This document shows, piece by piece, positions 1 through 14,703 of a stretch of 14,703 nucleotides of DNA. A program made the position numbers and the translations under genes. The notes beneath the pieces were generated by a model. The model searched no databases. It was given only the letters and a program-made list of their open reading frames with translations, and had not been told where the DNA came from. Origin of the DNA: Candidatus Aminicenantes bacterium UBA4085 (GTDB lineage: Bacteria > Acidobacteriota > Aminicenantia > Aminicenantales > UBA4085); NCBI GenBank assembly GCA_002383325.1, contig DFYJ01000060.1, positions 6,972 through 21,674 on the forward strand, written 5' to 3'. Each line of letters begins with the position of its first letter. Position 1 is the first letter of the stretch.

Positions 1-1920
1 GGCCTGCGGGCCCTCCTTCGATCGCCGGCCGGGACGATCGCCGGGATCGCCGTCGCGGCCGTCGCGCTGTTCGGACTGCTGGCCTTCGGCCGCAGGCTTC
101 TGGGCCCGCCGGCCTCCTTCGAAAACCTGATCACGGTCGCCCCCTTCGAATACAAGACGCAGGACCTTCCCGCCCGCCTTATCGAGTTCGCGCTCGACCG
201 CTCCCTGGCCGCCTCGACCCGCATACCGGTCCTCAGCGGTGACGGACGCGATCTGGCCGGAGGCGCCGAGGGCCTCCGGGCCCGCAAGCCCCTGGCCAGG
301 ATCTCGGGGACCGTCGTCCCGACCCTGACTGGATTCGACGTCGACGTGACGCTGGTCCACAAGGGCGTTAAGAGCCGCCGGGTCTTCCCCTGCAAGGGCA
401 GCCTCGATCTGATCTCGAGCCGGATCGACGAGATTCTGGCCTTCCTCAAGTCCCGGACCGCCGGGGACATCGGCCCGATCGAAGGCGGCCGGACCTTCGC
501 CTCCATCTGCACCTCCAACTGGGACGCCCTGAGCCATTTTCTCAAGGCCCGGGCCGCCTGGGACAAGCTCGACGCCAAGACGGCCGCGGCCGAGTTCAAG
601 ACGGCCCTCGAATACGACCCGGATTTCGCCCTGGCTCGCCTCAAGGCCGCCGAGGTGGACTTCTTCCAGGACGACCGCGAGGTGGCCCGGGTCAAGGCCG
701 CCGCGGCTTTGGCCTCCGGCGAGCGGCTGATCGGCTACGACACCCTCCGGCTCAAGGCCCTGCTGGCCCGGATCGAATCCAGGCCGGCCGAGGAGCGGGG
801 CTTCCTGATGCAGCTGATGGAAGCCTTCCCCCGCAACCGCGAGTACCTTTACGAGTTCGCCGAGTCTTACTTCCATACCGGGGACGGGGCCGAGGCCATT
901 CCCTACTACACCAAGGCCCTGGACCTGGACGAGACCTACGCCCTGGCCCACAACCACATCGCCTTCTGCTACGCCTGGACCGGGAATCACGCCAAGGCCG
1001 AGGAGCATTTCCGCCGCTACGTCGAGCTGGACAAGACCGCCAACTCCTTCGATTCCATGGCCTCCGGCTTCATGTTCGCGGGCCGTTACGCCGAGGCCCT
1101 GGCTGCGCTCGACCAGGGTAAAGCGCTCGACTCCGGCCTCTACTACCTCTACTCCAACTATGCCACCAACTTCGCCCTGACCGGAGCCCTGGACAAAGCC
1201 GAGGAAAGCCTGCGCCGGGAAGCCGATAACGCGACCGGCGAATCCTCCCGCTTCGACATTCAGTTCGACCGGGCCCACATCGCCGTCCTGCAGGGCGAGG
1301 CGGCCCGGGGCGAGGAGCTCTTGCGGCCCGTCCTGGAGTTCTACGGCGGATCGGCCTTCGCCGGGCGGCTGGACGAATCGCCCGTCCGACCGATCTGGCT
1401 TTCGGGCTGCCTGGCCGCGCAGCGGAGCGACAGGGGCCGCCTCCGCTCGGCGATCGCCGACCTGACCCGCAGGGCCGAAGCCAAGAGCTTGAACGCCGCC
1501 AACTACTTTCCGGTCCTCAAGTTCCTGGTCCACCTGAGGGCCCTGGAAGCCCGCCTGGCCAAGGACCGGGAAGGCGTCCTGCGCGAGGTCGAGGAAGCCC
1601 AGCGCTTCGAGTCCAAGATGGGCTACTGGACTTCGCCTTTCGACCGGGCCTATTTTCTGGACGAGTACGCCCGCCTCATTCTGGAGATCGATCCGGCCTC
1701 GGCCAAGCCCAAGGAGATCCTGAGCGGGGTCTTGGCCTACAACGCCAGCTACCCTCCGGCCCTGCTGCGGATGGCCCGCCTGCTGAAGGCCGAGGGGGAC
1801 GCGGAAGGAGCCAAGCGCCTTCACGGCCGGGCCAGCGCCGTCCTGACCGGAGCGGTCGCCGGATCCCTCCTGGCCAAGGAGCTGGCCGCCGTCGGAGCGC
1901 TTCTAGGAGTCCGTCCATGA
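1..1920 (+). CDS. TPR signalling protein with transmembrane segment (5'-partial), probably the C-terminal part of a Ser/Thr kinase or CadC/TolB-like sensor
   Basis: The frame is open from the first base, so the start lies outside the window; 639 codons are visible. Visible residues 11-30 form one hydrophobic transmembrane helix followed by arginines. Residues of about 42-110 (starting FENLITVAPF) resemble the TolB-like/cyclase-associated domain that follows the membrane helix in many TPR signalling proteins. From about residue 170 to the C-terminus there are helical tetratricopeptide units, clearest around 294-405 (for example AEAIPYYTKALDLD and AKAEEHFRRYVELD). Proteins of this layout usually have an N-terminal kinase or winged-helix domain inside the cell and TPRs outside; that part cannot be seen here, so the kinase assignment is inference. 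The gene overlaps the following FHA-cyclase gene by 4 bp (ATGA), so the two are translationally coupled, and an FHA domain downstream fits phospho-threonine signalling. An internal ATG at codon 284 and other internal starts are less likely than continuation past the edge. Confidence 0.8.
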   Translation, partial: GLRALLRSPAGTIAGIAVAAVALFGLLAFGRRLLGPPASFENLITVAPFEYKTQDLPARLIEFALDRSLAASTRIPVLSGDGRDLAGGAEGLRARKPLARISGTVVPTLTGFDVDVTLVHKGVKSRRVFPCKGSLDLISSRIDEILAFLKSRTAGDIGPIEGGRTFASICTSNWDALSHFLKARAAWDKLDAKTAAAEFKTALEYDPDFALARLKAAEVDFFQDDREVARVKAAAALASGERLIGYDTLRLKALLARIESRPAEERGFLMQLMEAFPRNREYLYEFAESYFHTGDGAEAIPYYTKALDLDETYALAHNHIAFCYAWTGNHAKAEEHFRRYVELDKTANSFDSMASGFMFAGRYAEALAALDQGKALDSGLYYLYSNYATNFALTGALDKAEESLRREADNATGESSRFDIQFDRAHIAVLQGEAARGEELLRPVLEFYGGSAFAGRLDESPVRPIWLSGCLAAQRSDRGRLRSAIADLTRRAEAKSLNAANYFPVLKFLVHLRALEARLAKDREGVLREVEEAQRFESKMGYWTSPFDRAYFLDEYARLILEIDPASAKPKEILSGVLAYNASYPPALLRMARLLKAEGDAEGAKRLHGRASAVLTGAVAGSLLAKELAAVGALLGVRP

Positions 1921-2858
1921 ATCCATCCCTGCACCTCGAGATCTCCGGCCGCGAACCCGTCATCTACGAGGTCGGCAACACCACCGGAATCGGGAGGGCC
2001 TCCTCCAACCAGATCTGCATCAAGGAAGACGCCGCCGCCTCACGCCAGCACGCCCTGATCCGCCGCCAGGGGGAGCAGGAGTACTACCTCATCGACATGG
2101 GCTCGGCCAACGGCACCCTGCTCAACTCCAAGCTCATCATCGGCCCGACCCTGCTGCGCAACAACGACCTCATCCAGGCCGGCGAAACCATCTTCCGCTT
2201 CGAGCTCCCCGGGCCCTCGCCCGAGGAAGTCGCCAAGCTCAGCCAGACGATGTGCGAGAAGACCCAGATGGCCGTCCACCTGAAGACCATGGTCATCCTG
2301 GTCTGCGACATCCGCAACTTCACCCGCATCGGCGAGCTTCTGACCCCGGATATGCTGGCCCGCTTCCTGGGTTCCTGGTTCCGCCAGACCCAGGAGATCA
2401 TCGCCGCCCAGGGCGGGGTGGTGGACAAGTACATCGGTGATGCCGTGATGGCCTACTGGCCGGTCTCCTCCCAGGTCCCGACGGAAGCAGCCGAGAACGC
2501 GGTCAACGCCGCCTTGAGGATCCAGGCTCTGGCCCAGACGACGACCCTGCCGGAAGGCACCGACTTTCCCTTCGCTGTGGGAGTGGGCATCAACCAGGGC
2601 CTGGTCTCCAGCAGCAACGTCGGGCAGTCCCAGCGCGACATGACCATCATGGGCGACGCCGTGACCCTGGCCTTCCGGCTGGAATCGGCCTGCAAGGTCA
2701 AAGCCATGCCCATCGTCGTCGGGACGGACATCCACCGCGTGCTGGGAGACAAGTTCAAGTTCATCGCCCTCGGCCAAGTCAAGCTCAAAGGCAAGACGAC
2801 CAGCCCGGAGGCCTTCGGACTGCGGGTTGAGAACGAAGCGGGACATAAAGCCGGTTGA
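1917..2858 (+). CDS. FHA domain - class III adenylyl cyclase
   Basis: This 313-residue soluble protein should make cAMP (or cGMP) under control of a phosphopeptide-binding domain. Residues of about 20-95 are a forkhead-associated domain: GIGR (24-27), SRQH (42-45) and SANGT (63-67) are the phospho-Thr-contacting signatures. Residues of about 125-300 are a class III nucleotide cyclase domain. The two metal-binding aspartates are D131 (in CDIRNFT) and D175 (in KYIGDAV). K171 and T243 occupy the base-selecting positions and give the Lys/Thr pair typical of class IIIb adenylyl cyclases. R254 is the transition-state arginine, but the usual partner Asn (GDAVN) is Thr (GDAVT, T250), which could lower activity. 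The start ATG overlaps the stop of the upstream TPR/membrane gene by 4 bp, implying one operon. cAMP as product is inferred from the Lys/Thr pair. Confidence 0.92.
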   Translation: MNPSLHLEISGREPVIYEVGNTTGIGRASSNQICIKEDAAASRQHALIRRQGEQEYYLIDMGSANGTLLNSKLIIGPTLLRNNDLIQAGETIFRFELPGPSPEEVAKLSQTMCEKTQMAVHLKTMVILVCDIRNFTRIGELLTPDMLARFLGSWFRQTQEIIAAQGGVVDKYIGDAVMAYWPVSSQVPTEAAENAVNAALRIQALAQTTTLPEGTDFPFAVGVGINQGLVSSSNVGQSQRDMTIMGDAVTLAFRLESACKVKAMPIVVGTDIHRVLGDKFKFIALGQVKLKGKTTSPEAFGLRVENEAGHKAG

Positions 2859-2936
2859 GGTCCCGCCCGCTCCGTCGGGGCGGACAGGCCGGGCCGACGC
2901 GGCGCCCCCGAAGTCGGCAAGGGAGAGAATGCCAAG

Positions 2937-3533
2937 ATGCGCCAGATCATGTTTTTGCTTCGAACAGCGGCCGTCGTTCTCACGCTGACCGCCTCGCTGG
3001 CCGCGGCGTCCTCCCCTGCCGCGGCCGAAAGCCAGGCCTCCGATGCCCGCCTGTCGGCCATCCGGGAGCATGCAGCCAAAGTCCAGGCCCTCATCGCCGA
3101 GGCGGACAAGGAAGCGGAAGGCGGCGGCATGCCGGGCTTCTACTGCACCGAGGTCTTCGTCAACAGCCGCAACGGATCCTGGCGGGCGGTCGGGAACTAC
3201 TACCAGAAGATCGCCTTCTGGCATACCGACCAGCCGGAATTCGCCGGGGAAGGCAAGCCGGAAGCCTCCGTCCTGGCCAAGGTTGAGATTCAGGATGGCG
3301 CGGCCATCCGGACATCCTACCGGGACTATCTCTTCCGGGACGGCCGCCTGGTCTTCGCTTACATCAAGGAAAAATCGGGCGACGGCCCGTTCGAGGAGCG
3401 CCGCTACTACTATGACGGCGGGAAGCTTTTCCGCGTCCAGATCGGCAAGGACGTCAAGGAACAGGCGCCCGACGCCGAAGTCGTGCGCGAGGCAGCCGCT
3501 CTGCAGGCCCGCTTCCTGGCCCTTTACCGCTGA
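2937..3533 (+). CDS. Exported protein of unknown function
   Basis: This 198-residue protein is not one I recognise. Residues 1-30 form a classical Sec signal peptide: basic start (MRQIMFLLR), hydrophobic core, and an Ala-rich end with a likely cut after SSPAAA. The mature part starts with a charged helix (about 35-62) and continues with alternating beta-like, aromatic-rich stretches (NYYQKIAFWH, RDYLFRDGRLVFAYIKEK, RYYYDGGKLF). These look like repeated antiparallel hairpins, as in small periplasmic or surface beta proteins. No catalytic motif or cysteine cluster is visible; there is one Cys (70). The start was chosen because GGGAGAG at 2921-2927 lies at ribosome-binding distance and gives an intact signal peptide. 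It follows the cyclase gene by 78 bp on the same strand and could be its co-transcribed periplasmic partner, which is inference. It converges on the alpha-galactosidase frame with a 13-bp gap. Confidence 0.85.
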   Translation: MRQIMFLLRTAAVVLTLTASLAAASSPAAAESQASDARLSAIREHAAKVQALIAEADKEAEGGGMPGFYCTEVFVNSRNGSWRAVGNYYQKIAFWHTDQPEFAGEGKPEASVLAKVEIQDGAAIRTSYRDYLFRDGRLVFAYIKEKSGDGPFEERRYYYDGGKLFRVQIGKDVKEQAPDAEVVREAAALQARFLALYR

Positions 3534-3546
3534 CGGGGGGGGCGGA

Positions 3547-4527
3547 TCACCGCAAGCGGCGGTATTTGATCAGGAGCGAGCCCCTCGCTTCAGCGATCTT
3601 GATGTCGACGCCCTCCGCAAGCTCGCCCCCCTTCTTGATCAGCATCAGTCCATAATCCTCGTAGGAGATCTCGTAGTCCGCTGCGGCGTCGAGTCCGTGC
3701 AGATTCGCGCGGATCGCCGCTGCCGGCGCCTTGTCCCGCCGGAAGGCCAGGACGATGCCGTCCCCTTCCTCAGGGCGGTTCCACTGGAACGCGGCCCGGG
3801 CGTCGTCGGATGTGGAGTATTCCGTCAGGGGGTAGAAGTCCGCGGAGAAATACGGGCGTAGGCGCCGGAACTCGGCGATGTCCTCGCGGGCCAGGGCGGC
3901 CGAGAATGTCGGCTTGTTGGGGGCGCCGTTGATCTCCCAGGCCAGGACGACGGCGCCGCCGGACATGGCGCTGCGTGAGGCGTACCGGCTGGGATCGTTG
4001 TTCCCGGTCCCGCTGAACGGGAGGTAGAGCTGGAGCCCGTAAGTGTGGCCCTGCTCCCCGTTCGGCTCGCAGGGCTCGGAGTCGGTCCGCCAGAGAGGGA
4101 TGCTGCGGCCGATCGTCTCGAGATCTAGCCGGCGGCCGCCCCCGGCGCAATTATCGATCAGCAGCCCGGGGACCTTGGCCAGGAGGGCGTCCCAATAGGC
4201 ATAGAGCCCCTCGACGTGCTTCATCTCCGAGATCCCGATCCGGTCCGGCGCATCCATGGTCCGCCAGTAGACCGCCGCGTTGAAGTTGATATCCTGGCGG
4301 TAGATGGTCACGCCCGAGGCCAGGAGAAGACCCGAGACATGATCGATCAGCCAGCCCAGGGCTTCGGGGTTGCCCAGGTTCAACAGTCGGTCGGGGACAT
4401 CCGGAAGGCGGGTCAGCCACTCCGGATGCTCCCGGTCGAGCCAGGTGCCTTCGTAGACGCGCTCGGGCTCGAACCACAGGACGAAGCGCTTGCCCCGTCG
4501 CCAGGCCTCATCCCCGATCGGCTTCAA
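3547..4527 (-). CDS. Alpha-galactosidase, C-terminal catalytic fragment (after the in-frame TAA)
   Basis: The frame continues directly from the TAA; the first usable start codon is a TTG at 4527, leaving 31 conserved codons untranslated between the stop and that start. The 326-residue piece has the catalytic nucleophile (YRQDIN, D79 of the piece), the acid/base region (LWRTD, D149) and the C-terminal beta domain. It has no signal peptide and no convincing ribosome-binding site, so independent translation into a working enzyme is unlikely. It ends with TGA 13 bp from the stop of the convergent exported-protein gene. Confidence 0.7.
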   Translation of the reverse strand: MKPIGDEAWRRGKRFVLWFEPERVYEGTWLDREHPEWLTRLPDVPDRLLNLGNPEALGWLIDHVSGLLLASGVTIYRQDINFNAAVYWRTMDAPDRIGISEMKHVEGLYAYWDALLAKVPGLLIDNCAGGGRRLDLETIGRSIPLWRTDSEPCEPNGEQGHTYGLQLYLPFSGTGNNDPSRYASRSAMSGGAVVLAWEINGAPNKPTFSAALAREDIAEFRRLRPYFSADFYPLTEYSTSDDARAAFQWNRPEEGDGIVLAFRRDKAPAAAIRANLHGLDAAADYEISYEDYGLMLIKKGGELAEGVDIKIAEARGSLLIKYRRLR

Positions 4528-4620
4528 GCCGCGGGGAAAGCGCGTCGCATCGGGGCGCCAGGTTCCGACGCCGTCCCACCAGAACGTGGAGGCGTTCTCG
4601 TACCAGCCGGCGTCGATCCA

Positions 4621-5583
4621 TTAGGCGTCGGGATCCAAGCCGAACTGGGCCAGCCGCTCGATCATGGACAGAACCCGGATCTCGGTGGCGCAGGTGTATT
4701 CGTTGCAGGGGGCGGGCCCGCCGAATCCAACACCGTGCGAGATCGGCGGCACCACCAGTTGGCCGTCCGGGCGGGGCGAGTGATGCGCCAGGACGAAGCG
4801 GCGGAAGAGATTGTGCCCGTCGAATCGATCGGAGCCCTGCCAGAAAAGGAGGGCGAAGGAGGGGCCGCGGACCTCCTCCCCGGGATGGAGCCGGAAATGC
4901 GTCTTCTCCATCCCGACCTCAAGGCTGACGGCGCGATCGGCAGGCTTCTTGACAACAGCCCGCCAGCGGCCGGTCCAGCCCACGGCCACCATGATCCCCT
5001 TTCCCGGTCCGGCAATGTTGAAAAACGGCAGGGCCGTGTCGGACGGCCGGCCTCCCTTGGGCCCGAAGGCGACTTCCGATCCTTGGGAGAGGACGTCGGC
5101 GATCGGCGCGAAATCGGTCCGGGCGGCGTCGCTGCCGAGAGCGTGGTGGAGAGTGGCCGGTCCCTCGGGACGATCCTCGAACAGAAGCGATGAGATCAGG
5201 ACATCGCGCAGAATCGGCGTGTCGGCCCGCCCCTCGTTCTTGAACCGGACGACCCACTCGACGGCCGGGAAATCCGCGGTGAGCGTATAGACCACGGTCA
5301 CCCGAAGCTTGGTCATCGGGTCGGAGTAGACAACCGTCTTCAGCGTCTTGCTTCCGATCGTTTCGTTCTTCGAGCTGACGCGCCATCTTCCGAGAAGCGA
5401 CACCGATGGTCGATCGCCATAGATGAAGGAGAACGGCGGCGCGGCGGTCCGCTCGACGTGGGCAGCCGCGAACCGGGCCAGGCTGTCCTTGTCATGCGCC
5501 GCCGCGGGGTTAAATTCGGACGCAGCCGCTGATGCCGTCAGGACCATCACGGCGGCCGAAATCAGTCCGATCTTTTTCCTCAT
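4621..5583 (-). CDS. Alpha-galactosidase, N-terminal fragment (up to the in-frame TAA)
   Basis: This 320-residue piece holds the signal peptide (about 1-22), the beta-sandwich domain typical of GH36 enzymes (about 25-260) and the first strand of the catalytic barrel. It ends abruptly at GLDPDA, before any catalytic residue. A purine-rich Shine-Dalgarno stretch (the complement of the pyrimidine run at 5584-5614, with GGAG/AGGAG elements) supports the start at 5583. If translated only to the TAA, the product would have no catalytic site and would likely misfold, so this is better seen as the 5' part of the interrupted gene. Confidence 0.75.
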   Translation of the reverse strand: MRKKIGLISAAVMVLTASAAASEFNPAAAHDKDSLARFAAAHVERTAAPPFSFIYGDRPSVSLLGRWRVSSKNETIGSKTLKTVVYSDPMTKLRVTVVYTLTADFPAVEWVVRFKNEGRADTPILRDVLISSLLFEDRPEGPATLHHALGSDAARTDFAPIADVLSQGSEVAFGPKGGRPSDTALPFFNIAGPGKGIMVAVGWTGRWRAVVKKPADRAVSLEVGMEKTHFRLHPGEEVRGPSFALLFWQGSDRFDGHNLFRRFVLAHHSPRPDGQLVVPPISHGVGFGGPAPCNEYTCATEIRVLSMIERLAQFGLDPDA

Positions 5584-5759: not shown

Positions 5760-6633
5760 GAAAAACATGATTCACCATCGTTGCCGCCGCGGCCGCCTCT
5801 CAGGGCTCATGACGGGAGGACCGGCAGCAAGAACCGCCCTCGCCGGCCTGGCGGCCCTGATTCTGCCGCATGGAAGTTGCCTCCTCCTCAGGCCCGCCTC
5901 CGCTCCGATGCGCGTCGTCCGCTTCGCCCCTGCCGCTGCGCACGCCCCGACCCTGGTTGTTTTCCTGCCGGGCCGGGCCAGCGATCCGGCCGATTTCGGA
6001 ACCGAACGATTTCCGGCTCTAGCCAAGGAAGCGGGCCTCGCGGTCGATATGATCGCCGTGGATGCCCACCTCGGGCATTACCTGAAGCGGACGCTCAATG
6101 TCCGGCTCAAGGTCGATATCATCGATCCGGCCCGCGCCGCCGGCTACAAGGACATCTGGCTCGTCGGCATCTCCATGGGCGGACTCGGCGCTCTCTTGTA
6201 CGCGAGGGAGCATCCGGACGATGTCAACGGATTGGTGCTCCTGGCGCCCTTTCTCGGCGACAGGGCCGTGATCGACGAGATCGGAGCCGCCGGGAGATTG
6301 TCGATGTGGAAGCCGCAAGAGCCGCTTCCGGCGAGCGATTATCAAAGGATGATATGGCTCTTCTTGAAGGATGCTTTGCGTCCCGGGGCGGCCGGGCCCG
6401 ATATCTGGCTCGGCTTCGGCACGGAGGATGCCTTTGCCCGAGCCAATGGACTTTTAGGCCGGGAATTACCCCCCGAGCGCGTCTTCACGGCGCCGGGCGG
6501 CCACCGTTGGGAAACTTGGCGGGGACTTTGGAGGCGAATGTTGGAGCGCGGGATGCTCCCAACGCTCGGCGAGCTCCGCAAAGTGCCCGCCGCGGACACG
6601 GATAAGGCGCCTCGTCGTCGTTCGAACGCCTAA
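5758..6633 (+). CDS. Exported alpha/beta hydrolase (esterase/lipase-like)
   Basis: This 291-residue protein has the serine-hydrolase fold in order: a beta strand ending in an oxyanion region (LVVFLPGR, 66-73), the nucleophile elbow GISMGG (S139), the acid in FGTEDAF (D224) and the histidine in GGHRWETW (H249). A hydrophobic stretch (about 26-45) suggests a signal peptide or membrane anchor; a Cys (41) follows it but the preceding HGS does not fit a good lipobox. Substrate is unknown. The first ATG at 5758 is used here, but the in-frame ATG at 5809 (codon 18) would give a more normal signal peptide and sits downstream of the candidate promoter. Neither start has a strong ribosome-binding site (AGGG 3 nt before the ATG at 5809). 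It is divergent from the alpha-galactosidase, and its TAA overlaps the TAG of the next, convergent gene. The composition is GC-rich like the genes to its left. Confidence 0.85.
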   Translation: MKNMIHHRCRRGRLSGLMTGGPAARTALAGLAALILPHGSCLLLRPASAPMRVVRFAPAAAHAPTLVVFLPGRASDPADFGTERFPALAKEAGLAVDMIAVDAHLGHYLKRTLNVRLKVDIIDPARAAGYKDIWLVGISMGGLGALLYAREHPDDVNGLVLLAPFLGDRAVIDEIGAAGRLSMWKPQEPLPASDYQRMIWLFLKDALRPGAAGPDIWLGFGTEDAFARANGLLGRELPPERVFTAPGGHRWETWRGLWRRMLERGMLPTLGELRKVPAADTDKAPRRRSNA

Positions 6634-7514
6634 GTCTGCTTGGCTTCTTCTTCGGCGCGAACGATTTCGAGTGCCTCTTGTAATGGGCGCGCTACAACAT
6701 GGGAGATCCATTGACCAGGAAGGGCGGCCTTGTCACGAATGGCATCTTGCACGGTCCCAATCTGGACAAAACCGTCTCCGCATTTCGGACAGATGCGACA
6801 GGTCATGAAGCCCATCCCACGGGAGTCCTTCCGGAGGATTTCAACCAGATCTTCCTTGGTTGGGGCCTGTGGGAGTAATTCTCTGATAGTTGAGACGGCG
6901 ATCTGCCCCATGGCCTTCCCGACTTTGGGACCAACATACCTCTCGCATTTCGGGCAAAGCAAGTATCGGTGCTTATCCCTGGCAACAACCATCCATCCGC
7001 CGACCATGACACCGAGAGTCGCGGAGGCAGGTATGTAGATTCGCAAGTCCCGAGTCGGAAATACAAAGGCCGCCCAAACAAACGACAATATGGCGAAACC
7101 TGCGCTTGATACGGCGACGGCTCGCATCACCGGCTTGATATTTGTGACCCTGACGCCCTTGGCTATGGCGCCAAGCACCTTGAAAGCGGTATATCCTCCA
7201 ATCATTCCGCTAATCATAGTCATCACTGAAGTCATGATAAAAGAACCGATACCACCGCCTCCGACGAGTCTAAGGAACTGACCCGATGCGTATGTCGTTC
7301 CCCGTGCTGACTTAAACAGGCCGGCGCCGAGGGTCGACAGAAGGAACATGGAAAGCCCACCCACTATCAAGCAGGCCGCGATCGCGATGGGCACCCCAAC
7401 CATGAGCAGCGTGAGTCGTTGTTTGGGAGTGGAGTTTCCTTTTTCGCTGCCTGCCCTCTTAGCCGCCTCTTGCCCGCGCATCTCTTCTCTATCTTGTTGG
7501 GATGGCCCGCTCAT
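6630..7514 (-). CDS. Membrane protein with C-terminal zinc-ribbon-like cysteines, unknown function
   Basis: This is a 294-residue protein I do not recognise. It has a charged, hydrophilic N-terminus (1-33), then hydrophobic helices at about 35-60, 84-113, 133-152 and 159-178, and a cytosolic-looking tail. The tail has CPKC (187-190) and, after a helical insert, CRICPKC (239-245), which together could bind one zinc ion as a split ribbon. The middle helices are rich in Gly, Ser and Met. The ATG at 7514 was preferred over the upstream in-frame start at 7556 because GGAGAG lies 4 bases before it. Base composition is clearly lower in GC than the genes to the left, and the stop overlaps that of the alpha/beta hydrolase, so this is where accessory-looking DNA begins. 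It lies outside the tRNA-bounded element defined at 7942. A role in membrane-associated sensing or stress is only a guess. Confidence 0.8.
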   Translation of the reverse strand: MSGPSQQDREEMRGQEAAKRAGSEKGNSTPKQRLTLLMVGVPIAIAACLIVGGLSMFLLSTLGAGLFKSARGTTYASGQFLRLVGGGGIGSFIMTSVMTMISGMIGGYTAFKVLGAIAKGVRVTNIKPVMRAVAVSSAGFAILSFVWAAFVFPTRDLRIYIPASATLGVMVGGWMVVARDKHRYLLCPKCERYVGPKVGKAMGQIAVSTIRELLPQAPTKEDLVEILRKDSRGMGFMTCRICPKCGDGFVQIGTVQDAIRDKAALPGQWISHVVARPLQEALEIVRAEEEAKQT

Positions 7515-7941
7515 CTTCTCTCCTTTCGTCCGAACACTGTAGGGACTGTCAAGCAAATCGCAGCGCTATAAAAGGGGGTTCTGATGGATGGGAATTTGCT
7601 TTATCCGGTAGGCTGCGAATCCACGTTCCGACCGATGAACCTCCCCTGTTGGCTATTTCGAAATAATCTCGCGCGGAGATGTCAACACACTCACCACTTC
7701 TCGCCCGCTCGTCCATTTCCCGATAAGCTGAGCTCGCCAGGCTGCTTCTGGCGATGAGACAGTCACCGAATCGACTCATCACCTGTTCGATTCCAGGTCC
7801 ATAGCTTGTGGCAAATTTATGCCGTCGGTGCGTGATTTGCGCCAAATCTGTGACGTAATTATGTCCACTAGGGCGGAATAGGACTGAAACGGATGGAATC
7901 CGTATCGTCCTGATTAGGGATGATTTAGAGCAGGTTATGGA
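7515..7941. other. Gap of 427 bp without a convincing gene
   Basis: A 98-codon minus-strand frame (7549-7845) exists but starts with TTG, has no visible ribosome-binding site, and its product shows no domain or hydrophobic pattern, so I do not call it a gene. The stretch is the flank originally downstream of the tRNA-Arg target. I see no strong hairpin-plus-T-run terminator and no repeat here other than the edge of the 14-bp repeat that starts at 7940. Confidence 0.5.
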
Positions 7942-7986
7942 TGGCGCGCCTGGGGTGACTCGAACACCCGACCAACGGTTTAGGAA
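7942..7986 (-). other. 3' half of a tRNA-Arg(CCU) gene: attachment site (attR-like) of the integrative element
   Basis: Read on the minus strand the sequence gives each part of a tRNA 3' half in order: anticodon loop TTCCTAA (7986-7980, anticodon CCT), 3' anticodon strand ACCGT, variable loop TGGTC, T stem GGGTG, T loop TTCGAGT, paired stem CACCC, acceptor strand CAGGCGC, discriminator G and encoded CCA (7944-7942). The bases just 5' of the loop (GTGGG) cannot pair with ACCGT, and no D arm precedes, so it is a fragment and not a working tRNA. Tyrosine integrases often cross over in the anticodon loop of tRNA genes, leaving this type of fragment at one end. The integrase stop codon TAA is the TAA of the loop. 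Because the recombinase lies on the 5' side, the element extends to higher coordinates and the intact tRNA is expected beyond the window. Confidence 0.85.
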
Positions 7987-9098
7987 CCCACCTTATCGGA
8001 CCTGTAACTCTTTATATTCGAGTCGTTTGCAGCTTTCGGAATTTCGACTTGTGCCATGTTTGTGCCATTAGCTTCGGAAAAACGGCCGTTTCTCCCTGAT
8101 CGGGACTCCAGCAGCTTCACCGCGTCCAAGGTGTGATCGAAGCCCGGATGGCTGTAGCGTTCGGTGAGCTTGATCGTCGAGTGGCCAAGGATTTTCGAGA
8201 CCGTGTGAAGATCGACACCGGCCCTGACCATGGCCGTCGCGGCGTAATGGCGGAGGTCGTGAATCCTCAGATCTTCGATCCCCGCCCGCCGGCAGGCCGT
8301 CAGGAAGGCCCGACGCGGGTATTTCGTGAAGGACCCGGTACTTGGGTTGGGGAAGACGTAATCGGCGCTCTGAGCGCGTGTTTTAAGGCTCCCCAGGGCT
8401 TCCAGGGCCAGGCTGTTGAGGGGGACCTTTCGGGAGCGGCCGCTTTTACTGTCCCGGACGACAAGGTATTGCTGAGACTCATAGACGTCCGTCCAGCGAA
8501 GCGCCATAAGCTCCCCTATCCTCATGCCTGTGTTCACGGCAATGATGATCGTCTCTCGGAGCGGAGAACTCGAGTTCGAAAGGAGTGAATCGAGCTCCTT
8601 CGAAGTTAGCTCCCGCCAGCGAAGCCTGTTCTTTTCGTTGAAGAGCTTGACCCGGCTCGCGGGATTCTCGGTTGCATAGCCCCAGTCGATCGCCTTGGTG
8701 AAGAGGGTCTTCAGGATCGAAAGCTCTCGGTTTACCGAAGAAACCTCGACCTCTTCCTGCCGCTTTTTCTTGTATCCCTCGATCAGGAACGGCGAGATCT
8801 TCTGGAGAGGCATTCCCTTGAAGAATTCCTTCAGGACCTTGAGGGCGACTTCGTCGCGCTTCCAGGAACGCTTATTGGGCTTGGCGTGTCTCTCCAGGTA
8901 GATTTTCGCGAAATCCCCGAAAATGACTCTCTGCTCGGCTTTGAAATTGAACGCCCCTCGAAGAATATCGGTTTGCACCGCGGAAAGGGCTGCCTGGGCT
9001 TCGGTTTTCGACCTGGCCCCGGGGATCCGGCGCCTTACACGCTTCCCCCCGGAGGAAAGATCCATGAACCAGGTAGTTCCCCGACGAAATATCCTCAA
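7980..9098 (-). CDS. Tyrosine recombinase/integrase
   Basis: This 372-residue phage-type integrase would catalyse site-specific insertion and excision of the element. An N-terminal arm-binding segment (about 1-55) and an SAM-like core-binding domain (about 58-150) precede the catalytic domain. The active-site set is complete: R193 (NTGMRIGE), a Lys in the beta hairpin SKSGRSRK (K218 or K224), H280-x2-R283 (HDLRHYAAT), H306 (LGHST) and the nucleophile Y315 (ERYSH). A 57-residue tail follows the tyrosine, longer than usual. The start is TTG at 9098, preceded by GAGGA 6 nt upstream; the nearest in-frame stop lies just before. Its 3' end runs into the tRNA-Arg fragment, so the gene stays intact whether the element is integrated or free. 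It follows the excisionase-like gene by 57 bp, probably on one transcript. Confidence 0.95.
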   Translation of the reverse strand: MRIFRRGTTWFMDLSSGGKRVRRRIPGARSKTEAQAALSAVQTDILRGAFNFKAEQRVIFGDFAKIYLERHAKPNKRSWKRDEVALKVLKEFFKGMPLQKISPFLIEGYKKKRQEEVEVSSVNRELSILKTLFTKAIDWGYATENPASRVKLFNEKNRLRWRELTSKELDSLLSNSSSPLRETIIIAVNTGMRIGELMALRWTDVYESQQYLVVRDSKSGRSRKVPLNSLALEALGSLKTRAQSADYVFPNPSTGSFTKYPRRAFLTACRRAGIEDLRIHDLRHYAATAMVRAGVDLHTVSKILGHSTIKLTERYSHPGFDHTLDAVKLLESRSGRNGRFSEANGTNMAQVEIPKAANDSNIKSYRSDKVGS

Positions 9099-9155
9099 AA
9101 TGCTTCCTCATATAGCTATTGCAGGAAGCGGGATTTTGCTCAAGTAGATAGGCGC

Positions 9156-9374
9156 CTAGAGTCGGTTTTTCCAGCCATCGGGACGCTCGTAACCTTCCTG
9201 CAGCCACTGCAGTAGGTCGTTTCGGATGAATCTATAGCCAATACCTGGCTTACGGAGGAACGGGATCCTCCGTTCAGAAATCAAGCGATAGACTGTTTTA
9301 ATGTGAATCTGCAATAGTTGGGCGACCTGGACGACAGTGAGGATGGCCTCGTCATTGCGTCCAGGGGTGGCCAT
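9156..9374 (-). CDS. Excisionase-like helix-turn-helix protein (MerR/AlpA-type)
   Basis: This 72-residue protein has a single winged helix-turn-helix: LTVVQVAQLLQIHIKTVYRL, then a wing with basic residues (RRIPFLRK) and the typical ending RFIRNDLLQWL. This is the HTH_17/excisionase pattern, in which a small DNA-bending protein biases the integrase toward excision or represses nearby promoters. The ATG at 9374 is preceded by GAGGG at a distance of about 9 nt. Its position just upstream of the integrase on the same strand agrees with an Xis role; a transcriptional regulator of the AlpA type is the alternative. Confidence 0.85.
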   Translation of the reverse strand: MATPGRNDEAILTVVQVAQLLQIHIKTVYRLISERRIPFLRKPGIGYRFIRNDLLQWLQEGYERPDGWKNRL

Positions 9375-9553
9375 TGTTATATTCCCTCTTGCTTGTCGAA
9401 ATCTAGGATCAGTACTCGTTCCATCGTTTTGTTCGAAAACAGCATCATATAGTGCTCCATTTACGGCAAGTTATTGTTGGCAATGGTTCTCCTATGATTC
9501 CTTGGGTTGGGCCCGTCATCATCCAAAACGACACTCCCCTGTGCTTCGGACGA

Positions 9554-9784
9554 TCAATTCGAGCCATTCTTCGGCTCTTCCCTGATTTTCATCATTTCCA
9601 GGAATTCCTTCGGCCATCTCTTTGCGGCCTTCTGCATTCTGGCTGCGTAACGTTTATCTTTGGGCGAGTAACCGAAGCGATATTCCCAATAACGACATCT
9701 TGGTATTGCGCATAAAGTCACTTCCTTGGAAGAACCGCCACTGCATTCGAGACATTCTAGCTTGATGATTTTTGATTTGGTCAT
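9554..9784 (-). CDS. Small Cys-rich phage-type protein, probable zinc-binding
   Basis: This 76-residue basic protein has CLECSGGSSKEVTLC followed by CRYW and EYRFGYSP. The pattern C-x2-C, SGGS, KEV-x-LC, C-x-[LY]-W, YRFG is one I recognise from small uncharacterised proteins of prophages and integrative elements; the four cysteines probably hold a zinc ion. The C-terminal third is a basic amphipathic helix. The ATG at 9784 is preferred to the TTG two codons earlier because AGGA sits 7 nt before it. It lies between the primase-helicase and the excisionase gene on the same strand. No specific function is known to me; binding of nucleic acid or a partner protein is a guess. Confidence 0.7.
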   Translation of the reverse strand: MTKSKIIKLECLECSGGSSKEVTLCAIPRCRYWEYRFGYSPKDKRYAARMQKAAKRWPKEFLEMMKIREEPKNGSN

Positions 9785-10085
9785 TTTCAATTCCTAAATT
9801 GAATTATTAGCGGAGCGACAGTCGATATGACAGCGGATTCCCCAGGCATGACCGGAGGACTATTAAACGCTGATTTGCCGTTAAGCCGGGGGGGAAGCAT
9901 CGGGAGGGAAAAAGGACGGATGTCTCTCTCCGGTAGTGGGCTATTTCTTAGCGTACTCCCCTGGAGCCCTGTATTACCCTCCCAACTGGGGTGGATATTA
10001 ATGCAGGGGGGGGTGCATAAATAAATATACAATATATATATACTTTTATACCTTATATTATGCATAAAGGAGGGTATGCCGCTGC
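9785..10085. other. 301-bp gap with AT-rich core and G-tracts; possible replication or promoter region
   Basis: The stretch holds G runs on the plus strand (seven at 9888-9894, eight at 10006-10013, and shorter GGG runs between), then about 50 bp of almost pure A/T (10018-10066) with alternating TATATA and two TGCATAAA copies (10014-10021 and 10061-10068). Such a strand-biased, easily melted segment next to a primase-helicase gene is where a replication origin could sit. It may equally supply the promoter for the genes to its left (TATAAAAG and TATATATATATTG on the minus strand). The 100-codon frame across it is low-complexity and not called. Confidence 0.35.
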
Positions 10086-12014
10086 TCATGCCGCTTTCCT
10101 TGACTTGACGAGGATCGGATGGCCCCTGCCGGGAAGCTCCTCGGTCACGATGTAGCCGGCCGATTTTTCCTTATCGACCGCGTTCTTGACCGTATGCGGC
10201 GAGAGCGCATTGTCTCGCTTTCTGAAGTAGGTAATGAGGTCCGCTAGCCGCGCCGATCCGCCTTGGGCCTCGCAGTAATCGCGGACTTCTCCAAAGCCGA
10301 TCTTTGCCCCGACCTCATGCCAGACATCGGATACGCGCATTAGGAAGGATTTTCCGTCAAATTCTATGGCGAATCGCGGCGGCCACTTGCCGTTGCGGAG
10401 CGTAATTTCGACTTGGTTGTAATCCTCATAGGCGAGCCTAAGGTTTGGGTTGTCTTTCTGTCCGCCTTGCAGTCTGTGGAGAAGAAAGAGGACGTCGGCA
10501 GCGTCTGCCAGAACGGAGTGCCCTCGAAAGAAGCCGGCCGCTTCAGCGGGGGCGTCGGGATCATCCTTGGGCCGTTTGCTGGAGAAGTGATGGCTGGTGA
10601 TGACGCCGCAGTTATAAGTTGTCTTGAGGTAGTTAACCCGATCCCGTATCGCGGCGAAGGCTTCATCCCGGTTTTCTCCCCCGATCATGAAGGTATGAAG
10701 CGGGTCCAGGCCGAGGATGTCGGGCTTGAACTTGTCGCACAGCTCGCGCAGCCGCTTGAAGCCCTCGTCCTTCATGAGCTTGATCGGTTCGCTCGTCCCC
10801 GTATAGGGGAAGAAATTGTCCGGGTCGAAGTGCCCAGCGTCGACGACTTTTCTCAGGCGTTTCCTGAATTCGCCCTCACCGAGTTCCTGCTGGACCATAA
10901 GGAACCGCCCCGGCCTCGGGATCAGGAAGTTAAGCCATTGCTTCTCGCCGCTCGCGAAGTGCAGACCCAGGTTCATCATGACGGTCGTCTTGTGCGCGTG
11001 TTTTACGCCGCCCAGGAGCATAAACTCTTCCCGAGCGAGCAGTCCCTCGATAAGGACCTCGGCCTCCGGAAGATCAGCCTTAAAGAAGTCTCCGAGCGAC
11101 CCGGTGAATGTTGGCTTCAGTTGGCGGGACAAGGCCGGGACATCTGTCTTCGCCGGTTGGATTCTCTCTGCTCTCGCGGCCAGCGCACGTACGGCCAAGG
11201 ATTTCTTGTCATTCGGAATGTCTCCGAGTCCGTTGATGAAGTCCGTGATGTCATGTTTCCCCTTCAAGTTGGCCTGTTTCTCCAGATCGACTAGGAGTGT
11301 GGTCTCCGCGACCTTCGACGCGGCCAGAGCCCGCTCCCTTCCGATCTGGGCGGCGTCTGTGTCCCAGCAGACGATGATCTCCTTCCCCGCGAAGAAGGGA
11401 AGAAACTCGTTCGTCCAATCATTCGCCCCGCCGGCTGTGGTTGCAGCAAAGCCCAGGTTTTCGAGCGTGAGCACGTCCTTCTCACCTTCGACGAGCCAGA
11501 TCGACTCCTGCTTGATGACTTCCGGCAGATTGAAGAGGACGCGACGAACTCCCTTGATGTCCCAGATCGGCTTGCCATCGACCGTGCGATAGAAATCAAA
11601 ATCCTTTGGTTTGAACCGGCGTTTGACGTAGAGGATAACTCCCTGCTCATTTGTGTAGGCGTATTCGGCTTCGACGATCTCTTCGGGGGCTGGACGCTTC
11701 CATGGCGCCGCCCGCCTCTTCTTCGCTGATGGCATGGCCCCAGCCTTGATGCCCTCGAGTACCTGGATACGCCGTCCCGCGTCCACGAAGTTGACGCCTT
11801 CCATCTTCATTACAAAATCAAATATTGTGCCGGCTGCCTTACAGCCGTGGCAATTGAACAGCCAGATTCCATCCTTCTTCTGAGTTACTGATAAGCTTGG
11901 TACGTGGTCGTTGTGGAAAGGACAGATCGCCGCTCCGTTCGAACTGACGATGACGCTGTAATGCAGACCGAGAAAAGCGGGGAGGTTGATCTTCTTGAGG
12001 GCGTCCTGGTTCAT
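10086..12014 (-). CDS. Primase-helicase of a mobile element (CHC2 zinc finger, TOPRIM, RecA-like ATPase)
   Basis: This 642-residue replication protein joins three modules. Residues 1-90 are a CHC2-type zinc finger (C31, H34, C55, C58; CPFH...CHGC) that reads single-stranded template. Residues of about 160-265 are a TOPRIM domain with the glutamate in VEGEKD (E177) and DTD (218-220), the catalytic metal ligands for primer synthesis. Residues of about 315-515 are a RepA/RecA-like helicase ATPase with Walker A GGVKHAHKTT (335-344) and Walker B ILGLDPLH (D437), followed by TSHH (473-476). The Walker A glycine before the lysine is His (H341), an unusual change. The C-terminal ~75 residues look like a winged helix. 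GAGGAG lies 9 nt before the ATG. Such fused proteins replicate plasmids, phage satellites and integrative elements; here it implies the element can replicate after excision. Confidence 0.93.
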   Translation of the reverse strand: MNQDALKKINLPAFLGLHYSVIVSSNGAAICPFHNDHVPSLSVTQKKDGIWLFNCHGCKAAGTIFDFVMKMEGVNFVDAGRRIQVLEGIKAGAMPSAKKRRAAPWKRPAPEEIVEAEYAYTNEQGVILYVKRRFKPKDFDFYRTVDGKPIWDIKGVRRVLFNLPEVIKQESIWLVEGEKDVLTLENLGFAATTAGGANDWTNEFLPFFAGKEIIVCWDTDAAQIGRERALAASKVAETTLLVDLEKQANLKGKHDITDFINGLGDIPNDKKSLAVRALAARAERIQPAKTDVPALSRQLKPTFTGSLGDFFKADLPEAEVLIEGLLAREEFMLLGGVKHAHKTTVMMNLGLHFASGEKQWLNFLIPRPGRFLMVQQELGEGEFRKRLRKVVDAGHFDPDNFFPYTGTSEPIKLMKDEGFKRLRELCDKFKPDILGLDPLHTFMIGGENRDEAFAAIRDRVNYLKTTYNCGVITSHHFSSKRPKDDPDAPAEAAGFFRGHSVLADAADVLFLLHRLQGGQKDNPNLRLAYEDYNQVEITLRNGKWPPRFAIEFDGKSFLMRVSDVWHEVGAKIGFGEVRDYCEAQGGSARLADLITYFRKRDNALSPHTVKNAVDKEKSAGYIVTEELPGRGHPILVKSRKAA

Positions 12015-12082
12015 GTCCCAGACTCCTCTGCAATACTAAGCTTCTCGAAACCGGCAACGGCGGCCGCACTCATTTGGCTTGA

Positions 12083-12100
12083 CTTTGCGGAATCGCAAAG
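12083..12100. promoter_or_regulatory. Perfect 7-bp hairpin between XRE and primase genes
   Basis: CTTTGCG (12083-12089) and CGCAAAG (12094-12100) are perfectly complementary around GAAT. There is no T-run on either side, so it is not a typical intrinsic terminator. It lies in the 121-bp gap before the primase-helicase start and may be an operator or an mRNA hairpin in its leader. Confidence 0.4.
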
Positions 12101-12135
12101 GCAGGGACACTCCCTACAGCAGCCGGAACGAAGAA

Positions 12136-12342
12136 TCATTTCTTCACTTCAAGATCGTCGTTAGGAAATACCTCAGAAACTCTGCACTTAAGCGCCTTCG
12201 CGATTCTGCGTTTTGTTTCCTTGCTGGGATCTTTAAAACCGCGCTCGACTAAGCTCAGCGTTGCCTGGGAAATCTCCGCGTCCCTTGCGATTTGATACTG
12301 ACTGAGTTCCCGATCCCGCCTCGTCCTTCTAACGTTGTTCAT
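12136..12342 (-). CDS. XRE/Cro-C1 family transcriptional regulator
   Basis: This 68-residue protein is almost all one lambda-repressor-like helix-turn-helix: RRDRELSQYQIARDAEISQATLSL... with the second recognition helix at about 25-34 and the family-typical VERGFKDPSKET and AKALKCRVSEVF that follow. It is the size of single-domain repressors or restriction-modification C proteins. GGAG lies 8 nt before the ATG at 12342. It faces away from the AT-rich unknown gene across a divergent promoter region with inverted repeats, and heads the minus-strand block that leads to primase and integrase. It probably represses its own promoter and perhaps both directions. Confidence 0.93.
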   Translation of the reverse strand: MNNVRRTRRDRELSQYQIARDAEISQATLSLVERGFKDPSKETKRRIAKALKCRVSEVFPNDDLEVKK

Positions 12343-12364
12343 CTCGCGCTCCTAATAATTAAGA

Positions 12365-12378
12365 ATCATAAATATGAT
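12365..12378. promoter_or_regulatory. Candidate operator overlapping the -10 of the XRE gene
   Basis: ATCAT (12365-12369) and ATGAT (12374-12378) form an inverted repeat around AAAT and overlap the predicted -10 hexamer of the XRE promoter. A dimeric XRE protein bound here would block its own transcription. The arms are short, so this is tentative. Confidence 0.35.
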
Positions 12379-12402
12379 CGGCCGTTTTCTCCAGTTTGTC
12401 AA
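12374..12402 (-). promoter_or_regulatory. Predicted sigma70-like promoter of the XRE gene
   Basis: On the minus strand TTGACA (12402-12397, perfect -35) is followed after 17 bp by GATCAT (12379-12374, four of six -10 positions). Transcription would begin near 12367, giving a leader of about 25 nt that includes the GGAG ribosome-binding site of the XRE gene. Confidence 0.55.
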
Positions 12403-12429
12403 GCGTATTTCGTTTATTATCATATACAT

Positions 12430-12472
12430 ACAATATACCGATATATTTGATTATGTGATTTTGGTATATTGT
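12430..12472. repeat. Perfect 10-bp inverted repeat in the divergent promoter region
   Basis: ACAATATACC (12430-12439) and GGTATATTGT (12463-12472) are exact reverse complements, 23 bp apart (33 bp centre to centre, close to three helical turns). Each arm contains a TATATT that reads as a -10 element outward: toward the AT-rich unknown gene on the plus strand (12465-12470) and toward the XRE gene on the minus strand. A pair of operator half-sites, or one looped operator, is the simplest reading. Confidence 0.6.
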
Positions 12473-12488
12473 TTTTGGGCGAAACAAA

Positions 12489-13469
12489 TTGTCAGATTCT
12501 AGCCTGGATGCTGCTGATTCTCTTAAAGATATCGACAGGATATTAAAGTCAGATTATAGATTCGGTCTCTTTGACTTCGCCTATTTTTTAGCGATTACTG
12601 TAACGAACATTTTTCTCGCTAACAGATCTTCATCGGATTCTAAAACGGATCTTTGGAAATACGACAAGGCCGCTGAACGTTATAGAAACGTTTTACTTCG
12701 TCGTCAGGAGATCACCAAGCGCCTGGATCAAGAACTCCAGCATGAGCGATCCAATATTCGCGACAATATTTCGCGATCTGCGCGACTGAAGAATAAAACT
12801 AAATTGATTCTGCTATGGTCTTACGCTCTTAATAAGCTGCGATGGAAATCTGTTCGAATACTGAATACTTCCGGTGAACTCGAAACGCCTGCTATAGGAA
12901 TAGAAACCAAGACATTAATTAGTTGGAATTCTTATCAATTCCTAATTAGTTGGTTTTATGAAAGGCTCTCCTCATGTTCGTATTCTTGCCTTTTTAGACC
13001 TGCCCCATTCAAAAACAAAGAAAAAGAAGCGGCAATATCGTTACGAGAGAAGAACTCTAAATTGTTCAGGCTCGAAGTGGCAAGTGAGATTTGGTTGTAT
13101 TGTGAAGGTCAGAGATATTTTCTCAAAAACGAATTCGTCATCAGAAGAAATCGCCCCGAACAGAGTGTACGACGACCTGTTATATATATTAAATTCGGAA
13201 ATAAAACGATCGAGTTGGGAGAGATGTCTTCAGGAAAGATAATTGTCTATAAGTATTCTTTTTCGAAAGGGAAGTTTACACGAACTAAGAAACGGATATC
13301 TGCTGAGTTCATTATCCCAGCATATCCGCTAATAGAATTTCCTTCTGGAGAGAAGTACTATTCCGAAAAATATATGCCGCCCCCATATCCTAGTTATGAA
13401 AGAATGAACATTATGTGGGACGATTTCATGAACGGAGTAATATCTTCATCAGACCGGTCAGAGAAATAA
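12489..13469 (+). CDS. AT-rich protein of unknown function
   Basis: This 326-residue frame is one I do not recognise. Its codon use is far more AT-rich than every neighbour, so it was probably acquired separately. Residues of about 26-45 are mostly hydrophobic (FGLFDFAYFLAITVTNIFLA), possibly a peripheral or single membrane helix. A charged helix rich in Arg, Glu and Gln (59-100) could be a coiled coil. The rest is basic and aromatic with beta-like stretches (RPVIYIKFGNKTIELGE). The C-terminal part is rich in Pro, Tyr and Ser. The only start after the upstream stop is TTG at 12489 (or ATT at 12468), with no strong ribosome-binding site; a near-leaderless message from the TATATT at 12465 would fit. 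It sits between an XRE repressor (divergent) and a GIY-YIG/DUF499 operon (convergent, 20-bp gap), the usual place for defence or toxin cargo; that role is inference. Confidence 0.65.
   Translation: MSDSSLDAADSLKDIDRILKSDYRFGLFDFAYFLAITVTNIFLANRSSSDSKTDLWKYDKAAERYRNVLLRRQEITKRLDQELQHERSNIRDNISRSARLKNKTKLILLWSYALNKLRWKSVRILNTSGELETPAIGIETKTLISWNSYQFLISWFYERLSSCSYSCLFRPAPFKNKEKEAAISLREKNSKLFRLEVASEIWLYCEGQRYFLKNEFVIRRNRPEQSVRRPVIYIKFGNKTIELGEMSSGKIIVYKYSFSKGKFTRTKKRISAEFIIPAYPLIEFPSGEKYYSEKYMPPPYPSYERMNIMWDDFMNGVISSSDRSEK
12916..12953 (+). repeat. 11-bp direct repeat inside the AT-rich gene
   Basis: TAATTAGTTGG occurs at 12916-12926 and 12943-12953, exactly nine codons apart in frame. It gives the repeated tetrapeptide LISW at residues 143-146 and 152-155. 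Between them GGAATT (12925-12930) and AATTCC (12937-12942) form a small dyad. A short internal duplication is the likely origin. Confidence 0.5.
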
Positions 13470-13489
13470 GCAATATTAAAATGGGCCGG

Positions 13490-14077
13490 CTATACAAGAA
13501 GCCGTTCCGGAATTCCCAGAAGCGGCATCGACGAACTCACTCGGCATATAATGGCAGTCTCCTCTTGAGTACGTGGATGATAACGGATTCCTGTTTCTTG
13601 GAATAAGCCGACGCTACTGGGCGCAGCATACAGAGTATTGGCTATAGCCGCCTCGATCCTCCTACGGATCCTAGTTTCGCATGAAAGCGGGGCTAGGAAG
13701 AACCGATAAATGTAGGCGAGTTTCGTTATCGGTTCTCCCAACCTTGAGCACTCAAGGATACATTCCTTCGCGCTCTTCTTCATCGTCGGATCGTACCGTC
13801 CCGGCCAGATCACAACTCTCTCGCCGCGAGCAAACTCCTCGGGAGAGTTTACATGATACATGCCAGAGGCGTGTTCGCAGTAGTGCTCGAGGAGCCTGGC
13901 TTCGAAGCTTCGGCCAGTTTCGCCAACATAATAAACGAGGTATCCCTGAGCAAGCAGGACTGTCCAGAGGTATATGCCAGACGTTCGCCTCAACTCAGCC
14001 TCGAAGATCGATGGCGCGCCTGGTGAACCCGGCCATGAGAACGGTCCTTCAAAGGCTACGATGAGATCGGTCGTCAA
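13490..14077 (-). CDS. GIY-YIG nuclease family protein
   Basis: This 195-residue protein has a GIY-YIG endonuclease domain at about 32-150. SGIYLW (33-38) and YYVGET (49-54) are the two signature strands; R61 follows in the helix (SFEARLLEHY) and E142 (RRIEAAIANTLY) is placed to be the metal-binding glutamate. These are the catalytic positions of the family, so it probably cuts DNA. The remaining C-terminal 45 residues show no known domain. The start is TTG at 14077, 6 bp after the TAA of the upstream DUF499-like gene and in the same frame as it, with AAGGA about 10 nt before; coupled translation is likely. The close pairing suggests it acts with the DUF499 ATPase in one system. It converges on the AT-rich unknown gene. 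Confidence 0.85.
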   Translation of the reverse strand: MTTDLIVAFEGPFSWPGSPGAPSIFEAELRRTSGIYLWTVLLAQGYLVYYVGETGRSFEARLLEHYCEHASGMYHVNSPEEFARGERVVIWPGRYDPTMKKSAKECILECSRLGEPITKLAYIYRFFLAPLSCETRIRRRIEAAIANTLYAAPSSVGLFQETGIRYHPRTQEETAIICRVSSSMPLLGIPERLLV

Positions 14078-14083
14078 GACTAT

Positions 14084-14703
14084 TTAGTCCTTCTCGAATC
14101 CCTGGCTCAGGAATTTCAATGTACGGCTGTTCTCGGTGACCGTGCGGACTACCTGATCTGAGGCGCCAGTGGGGATTTTGGCTTCAATCTCGAGGGTCAC
14201 GCACACTTCAGCTCCGACGAGCCCGTTAAGATGTGCGATCACCTCGTCGGCGATACGGCTCGCATCGCGACCGACGCGCTCGGGATCGAGCGTCACGGTG
14301 CCGTGGTAGCGGCGTAGCAACGCACGGCCTCCGGCCGGTGTGGCACCTGCAACCCCGGCCTCGGCTCCAGCAATCCCTGGTATCGTAGCCCCGTCTCCGC
14401 CCGCATCACCGCCGGCTGCACCTTCGCCGGGGACCTTAGGCGGCTGTGTCTCAGCATCCAGTTGCCGTTGCGCAACGTCCGGCTTTACCAGCAAACCTAC
14501 GCTGTCAGACGACACATTGACGACTTGGCCGCCTCGCAATCCCCGGAACCTGCTCGCCGCCTCATCATAGCTCTCGGCATAGGCGAACGTGTCCGACTTA
14601 AAGGTGAGCAATGCGATCCCGTCACGTATCGCCTGTATTAAAACCTCCGGACCAACGAGCCGCGGCAGATAATGATAGCGCGCGAAGTCTTCCACGAGTT
14701 GCC
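14084..14703 (-). CDS. DUF499-like ATPase, C-terminal part (gene continues past the right edge)
   Basis: The frame is open to the window edge with no stop, so only the last ~205 residues are visible. The first part (DFARYHYLPRL, then VLIQAIRDGI...FAYAESYDEA, GLLVKPDVA) and the last ~75 residues (YHGTVTLDPERVGRDASRI, EEVIAHL-like, LEIEAKIP, VRTVTENSRTLKF) match my memory of the C-terminus of large DUF499 AAA ATPases. A Gly/Ala/Pro linker (about 87-125) joins them, also typical. DUF499 proteins are the ATPase of helicase/methylase/ATPase (Hma-type) defence loci, normally with a DUF1156 methylase and a helicase nearby; those would lie to the right. The ATPase motifs are outside the window, so the call rests on the tail only. 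Confidence 0.75.
   Translation of the reverse strand, partial: QLVEDFARYHYLPRLVGPEVLIQAIRDGIALLTFKSDTFAYAESYDEAASRFRGLRGGQVVNVSSDSVGLLVKPDVAQRQLDAETQPPKVPGEGAAGGDAGGDGATIPGIAGAEAGVAGATPAGGRALLRRYHGTVTLDPERVGRDASRIADEVIAHLNGLVGAEVCVTLEIEAKIPTGASDQVVRTVTENSRTLKFLSQGFEKD

Follow-up and report, generated by a model that had tools for sequence, protein, structure and literature searches.

The right-hand end of a 14,703-nucleotide stretch of contig DFYJ01000060.1 from Candidatus Aminicenantes bacterium UBA4085 (the whole stretch is called the window here) carries a gene for a GIY-YIG-type nuclease directly behind the end of a gene of the DUF499/HmaC family. On balance we favour the reading that this protein is a stand-alone GIY-YIG DNA endonuclease. 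It would have been recruited to the 3' edge of a defence operon centred on DUF499 and carried by an integrative element, and would serve there as an auxiliary or backup effector. Observed directly are the gene order, the spacing of 6 base pairs (bp), the conserved catalytic positions of the nuclease and, among the genomes examined, the over-representation of its family beside McrC and N6-methylase genes. Because its relatives stand beside several quite different restriction systems, the nuclease appears to be a shared, promiscuous accessory part and not an obligate subunit or dedicated partner of DUF499.

The window nuclease matched no family in Pfam, PADLOC or NCBIfam and had no match to the Pfam GIY-YIG profile (PF01541) at E 0.1, a profile that detected 2 of 23 relatives (best E 7e-4). 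An alignment of 31 homologs nevertheless holds G34, Y36, Y50, G52, R56, R61, H65 and E142 invariant, and across 23 diverged rows G34, Y36, G52, R61, H65 and E142 remained invariant, with Y50 kept in at least 90%. The GIY and YIG tyrosines, the arginine and the glutamate of the superfamily are all present; the catalytic arginine would be R56 or R61 and E142 the putative metal-binding glutamate. A confident structure model ends in a short tail after the nuclease fold, with no large separate sensing domain. A second look at the structural comparison placed GIY-YIG folds among the matches listed, while Foldseek against the PDB alone gave no significant match and a sequence search of the PDB gave none even at E 10. 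Judged from sequence and model, the protein is probably a DNA-cutting nuclease of the GIY-YIG fold, a fold that we take it to share with T4 EndoII and Hpy188I. The family comprises 328 protein clusters at E 1e-3, and its members among the matches listed have neither a precomputed Pfam domain nor a functional name. It is sparse, with 4 of 247, 3 of 246 and 1 of 251 genomes positive in three phyla. One member (L074, 2014-3186) has 390 amino acids, about 195 of them forming an additional N-terminal part ahead of the GIY-YIG part, and another (L015, 9734-10567), 37% identical to the window nuclease, comes from a Bathyarchaeota genome bin, so that the family may cross domains.

The 205 amino acids of the right-hand gene that lie in the window match PADLOC HmaC (E 3.1e-37) at profile positions 741-940 of 941, the C-terminus only, and match no family in Pfam or NCBIfam. 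Their best relative found, a protein of 1115 amino acids on a viral-collection contig (L062), is 61% identical over the 205 amino acids and contains HEPN_Swt1 (PF18731, E 5e-34) and DUF499 domains; its locus also holds a piece of an HmaB methylase. An N-terminal Swt1-type HEPN domain occurs on DUF499 in a subset of the Type-1 BR type. Relatives were present in 39 plasmid records, and seven of the eight that were opened had the annotated order helicase, DUF1156 methylase, DUF499, some with intervening genes, the eighth (L065) having no DUF1156 row in its annotation. On the HmaC match, the L062 relative and the plasmid gene order, it is very probable that the right-hand gene, known here from its C-terminal 205 amino acids, represents the DUF499 component in a Type-1 BR/Hma system.

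The two genes meet at GAGAAGGAC TAA ATA GTC TTG ACG (minus strand), where the TTG start of the nuclease stands 6 bp past the TAA stop of DUF499 and both open reading frames (ORFs) share one frame. These letters agree with a preliminary description of this DNA, which had placed the genes 6 bp apart on one strand and in one frame, separated by TAA and two codons; its names for them, GIY-YIG nuclease and DUF499, are borne out by the invariant GIY-YIG positions and the HmaC tail match. A Shine-Dalgarno-like AAGGA lies 10 nucleotides before the TTG, inside the 3' end of the DUF499 gene, and this placement makes translational coupling of the nuclease to DUF499 plausible. The common frame has a chance of about one third and is by itself uninformative. 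No terminator-like or promoter-like site was found between 13300 and 14703, a stretch in which chance alone would give about one of each. A rare readthrough fusion of DUF499 and nuclease, suggested earlier from the shared frame and the two codons that follow the TAA, is extremely unlikely: the stop is TAA with A as the next letter, a Shine-Dalgarno-like stretch of its own precedes the nuclease, whose start aligns with the conserved N-terminus of its family, and no fused form was noticed among the DUF499 loci read. Relatives of this DUF499 subtype whose ends were read share a ...FE.. tail, and the fusion was rejected.

The proposal in the preliminary description that the nuclease is a dedicated GIY-YIG partner of DUF499 was not supported by the counts. 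HmaC was found in none of the 18 genomes, nor in the one viral record, reached through the nuclease family. HmaC-bearing genomes numbered 24 among 149 Acidobacteriota and 41 among 246 Planctomycetota, and a clear family member was detected with the broadened profile A2 in one of these 65 (G277); two further A2 rows in HmaC genomes (E 6e-4 and 0.006) were partial and taken as chance. The E-value of G277 in the A2 search is inflated since its protein is itself a row of A2, and the earlier A1 search, with a profile lacking that protein, found it at E 3.2e-7. No family member was present near DUF499 at any of 70 loci, comprising 60 loci in genomes (some being fragments of a single gene), 2 viral ones (one a short match) and 8 on plasmids, with about 1.5 kb of DNA on each side of the match covered for the genome loci. 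A loose GIY-YIG letter pattern matched two ORFs at these loci (L037, L043), both on the strand opposite DUF499 and without a family-profile match, and these were taken as chance. With no recurrent adjacency in the genome and locus counts, a dedicated DUF499-GIY-YIG pair was rejected. What recurs is a weaker form of the association: a complete Hma/BR locus with one member at the end opposite to that in the window, and the family at McrBC and other restriction systems. The suggestion of an extra effector, also made earlier, is the best reading of the nuclease.

The complete Hma/BR locus is that of G277 (L075), in which the nuclease ORF (7979-8548) ends 186 bp ahead of an HmaA helicase ORF (E 6e-166), followed by a PDC-S02 gene (presumably DUF1016-like), a Ppl-like gene, a gene that is Schlafen-like by eye, HmaB (7e-77) and HmaC (9e-99). 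The G277 nuclease is a distant member, only 21% identical to that of the window, and represents a second meeting of the family with an Hma/BR operon, at the other end of the operon than in the window.

Among 26 family loci read (the window, L001-L020 and L072-L076, with L021-L031 being short copies of some), ten had a restriction-type gene within 6 kb. These neighbours were the DUF499 gene (PADLOC) in the window, an HNH nuclease before and a type IIG-like enzyme after the nuclease in L002, HsdS in L004, a type III-like gene in L009, McrBC in L012, L014 and L019, a type IIG gene in L073, an N6 methylase in L074 (with two N6 methylase places nearby) and HmaA in L075. For 17 loci the ORFs of at least 150 amino acids within 6 kb were scanned (101 of 109 ORFs, the eight of L020 being left out), and for the remaining loci chosen neighbours only; the scan showed the top 25 families per library, so that weaker restriction genes could escape it. 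The methylase model 'mad2' matched two members, one of them pinpointed. Four McrC genes were found in 22 member-bearing genomes, three of them with a nuclease gene directly downstream (one in G012, two in G014) and the fourth (G009) on a contig other than the nuclease's. N6 methylases were found at 29 places, three within 6 kb of a nuclease gene (G464 twice, G012 once). L014 and L019 belong to one genome (G014), the nuclease copy of L019 being broken, and represent a duplicated McrBC-nuclease unit. The planctomycete contig G014 C109 carries partial or broken nuclease copies at L019 (8343-8922) and L076 (8183-8566), about 12 kb apart, and ahead of the L019 copy stands a second McrC, which at its start is almost the same as the McrC of L014. 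A further member (L020, 9938-10555) lies in a phage-like contig of the viral collection beside a ParB-type DNA methylase gene and has a close relative in Acidobacteria locus L017. It was not counted as a type II restriction-modification pair, the methylase being ParB-type by eye and lying in two frames; the C-terminal part of this gene matches type II methylases.

Several observations weigh against the auxiliary-effector reading. No restriction gene was counted within 6 kb at 16 of the 26 loci, several of them on short contigs, and the neighbours include a plain metabolic gene (molybdopterin oxidoreductase, L013) and, by eye, seryl-tRNA-synthetase-like and flavodoxin-like ORFs (L072, L011). 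Of the 10 loci that, counting the window, make up the closest subfamily (about 50% identity or more), only three have a restriction neighbour, namely the window, L002 and L004; the McrBC, BR, L073 (type IIG) and HsdM cases fall outside the well-supported clade of the window, and the link to defence is therefore less clear for the window subfamily than for the whole family. The McrC and N6-methylase numbers expected within 6 kb (0.02, with P about 2e-4 for two genomes, and 0.10, with P 0.004 for two genomes, respectively) were computed after the pattern had been seen. Neither 72,556 plasmid nor 50,697 phage records matched the nuclease at E 1e-5, which is unusual for a mobile defence gene, and the ATPase domain, helicase and methylase of the Hma locus lie beyond the window edge.

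The same lack of counted restriction neighbours, the variation of neighbours from locus to locus and the absence of HmaC from the 18 genomes would suit an independent cargo gene, that is, a solitary restriction enzyme, perhaps modification-dependent, whose gene came to lie behind DUF499 and has only the transcript in common with it, and single-gene GIY-YIG type IV enzymes do exist (CMoRE/PD-T4-3, PMC12923530). We regard this as possible but doubtful, given that McrC directly upstream and N6 methylases within 6 kb are commoner than expected, and given the position of the nuclease inside the operon in the sole HmaC genome that has a member, and a length of 195 amino acids that leaves no large separate sensing domain. 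It is improbable that the GIY-YIG protein makes the main cut for a helicase lacking a C-terminal nuclease: PMC12839542 reports that helicase and nuclease are fused in 79% of Type-1 BR taxa and that the remaining taxa have other nucleases close by, but the helicase of this system lies outside the window and no family member lies near DUF499 at any of the 70 loci. A selfish homing-type endonuclease inserted between genes would fit the sparse distribution of the family, the existence of free-standing homing enzymes in the GIY-YIG superfamily and the L020 member beside its ParB-type methylase gene; the repeated placement beside McrC, the absence from phage records and a single locus (L020) in the scan of viral_contigs with the nuclease family make this very unlikely.

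As an auxiliary effector, the reading we favour, the nuclease would be co-translated or co-regulated with DUF499 as part of the defence operon and would cut DNA. By analogy with the systems in PMC12839542 and PMC10853773, it might add its cleavage to that of the main helicase-nuclease or fire when that enzyme is blocked. More tentatively, the unnamed family as a whole might be a system-independent auxiliary effector at the operon edge of DUF499-BR, McrBC, type I and type IIG systems, with a shared trigger, for example foreign DNA that is stalled or partly cut. If the auxiliary-effector reading is true, GIY-YIG enzymes would join the auxiliary nucleases of DUF499-centred systems, a family of 328 clusters would gain a role, and one small, easily tested protein common to several restriction systems would allow direct tests of backup effector models.

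The position behind DUF499, occupied in the window by the GIY-YIG nuclease, seems to be a site where accessory genes settle. In related loci the next gene is a phosphotransferase (L033), RhuM (L036), a Uma2-type nuclease (L040, E 3e-5, below Pfam's cut-off), a UvrD helicase (L065), a TIR protein (L067) or, on the other strand, a NACHT protein (L068), and further loci have genes of unnamed function, the occupant varying from case to case. In L062 an ORF of 246 amino acids begins 63 bp past DUF499; it has no Pfam or PADLOC match, and visual inspection shows an E-C-K stretch, a possible hint of a PD-(D/E)XK nuclease.

The remaining genes of this part of the window (Table 1) look mostly like those of a mobile element. 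With the integrase, the excisionase-like and XRE-type helix-turn-helix (HTH) proteins, the primase/AAA_25 protein and a fall in guanine-cytosine (GC) content from about 0.66 at 1-5000 to 0.39-0.6 at 6000-14703, the region 6000-14703 probably represents an integrated element, the other end of which lies beyond the window. No convincing repeats mark its ends, and neither an Rfam match nor a tRNA was found. The ORF downstream of the nuclease, possibly an orphan defence or element gene, sits where the window is richest in AT (GC 0.39) and retrieved its own cluster alone from a search of 5.8 billion proteins. Outside this region, two minus-strand ORFs (3547-4527 and 4621-5583) within 3547-5583 read by eye like a split alpha-galactosidase-type gene.

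Table 1. Features of the window in and around the nuclease and DUF499 genes.
Feature	Position	Strand	Basis	Remark
Tyrosine integrase	7980..9098	-	PF00589, E 6.7e-33	
HTH_17 (excisionase-like) protein	9156..9374	-	PF12728, E 1.2e-13	
Primase zinc-finger + AAA_25 protein	10086..12014	-	Pfam	Replication-type gene of the element
XRE-type HTH regulator	12136..12342	-	PF01381, E 5.3e-9	
Orphan ORF, 326 amino acids	12489..13469	+	ORF list	Convergent with the nuclease, next gene downstream of it
GIY-YIG-type nuclease gene	13490..14077	-	ORF list	195 amino acids, TTG start
Junction	14078..14095	-		DUF499 TAA and 6-bp gap; AAGGA within DUF499 end
DUF499/HmaC C-terminal piece	14084..14703 (ORF 14084-14701)	-	PADLOC HmaC	205 amino acids, entering from the right edge of the window

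No paper pairing DUF499 or McrBC with GIY-YIG was found by title or abstract in the literature searched, and 'GIY' occurs 0 times in the main text of the CoCoNuT McrBC paper. The sole paper found with both 'DUF499' and 'GIY-YIG', PMC7641849, treats them apart in its available text, describing EVE-GIY-YIG fusions and, separately, a COG1743-DUF499-helicase operon with EVE proteins; wH-GIY-YIG fusions are described in PMC11037411. The nuclease shares its fold with the N-terminal domain of UvrC, from which it is set apart by the lack of a PDB sequence match. It differs from CMoRE/PD-T4-3, a single-gene GIY-YIG type IV restriction enzyme (PMC12923530): it has GIYLW in place of GIYxY and hence lacks the third tyrosine of GIYxY-YIG, and its 195 amino acids in total include no separate C-terminal sensing domain. 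The Type-1 systems among the DUF499-centred BR systems, also named Hma (PMC12839542), are alike in the DUF499/HmaC tail, here the only part of DUF499 read, and in having a nuclease at the edge of the core genes. The auxiliary nucleases reported there are of the PD-(D/E)XK, HNH, HKD, TOPRIM/OLD, HEPN, PIN and Schlafen types, whereas the GIY-YIG type is absent from the main text of that paper (0 occurrences of GIY, URI, UvrC and T5orf172). No mention of this nuclease family at a DUF499 system was found in the available text of the literature searched. The kind of arrangement is already known from these BR auxiliary nucleases and from the URI (GIY-YIG) nucleases found at Dnd system boundaries, where stand-alone nucleases have been proposed as backup suicide effectors (PMC10853773). 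The Dnd system is a different defence system, likened to the window by placement, and in both a stand-alone GIY-YIG gene lies at the edge of a modification-based defence system.
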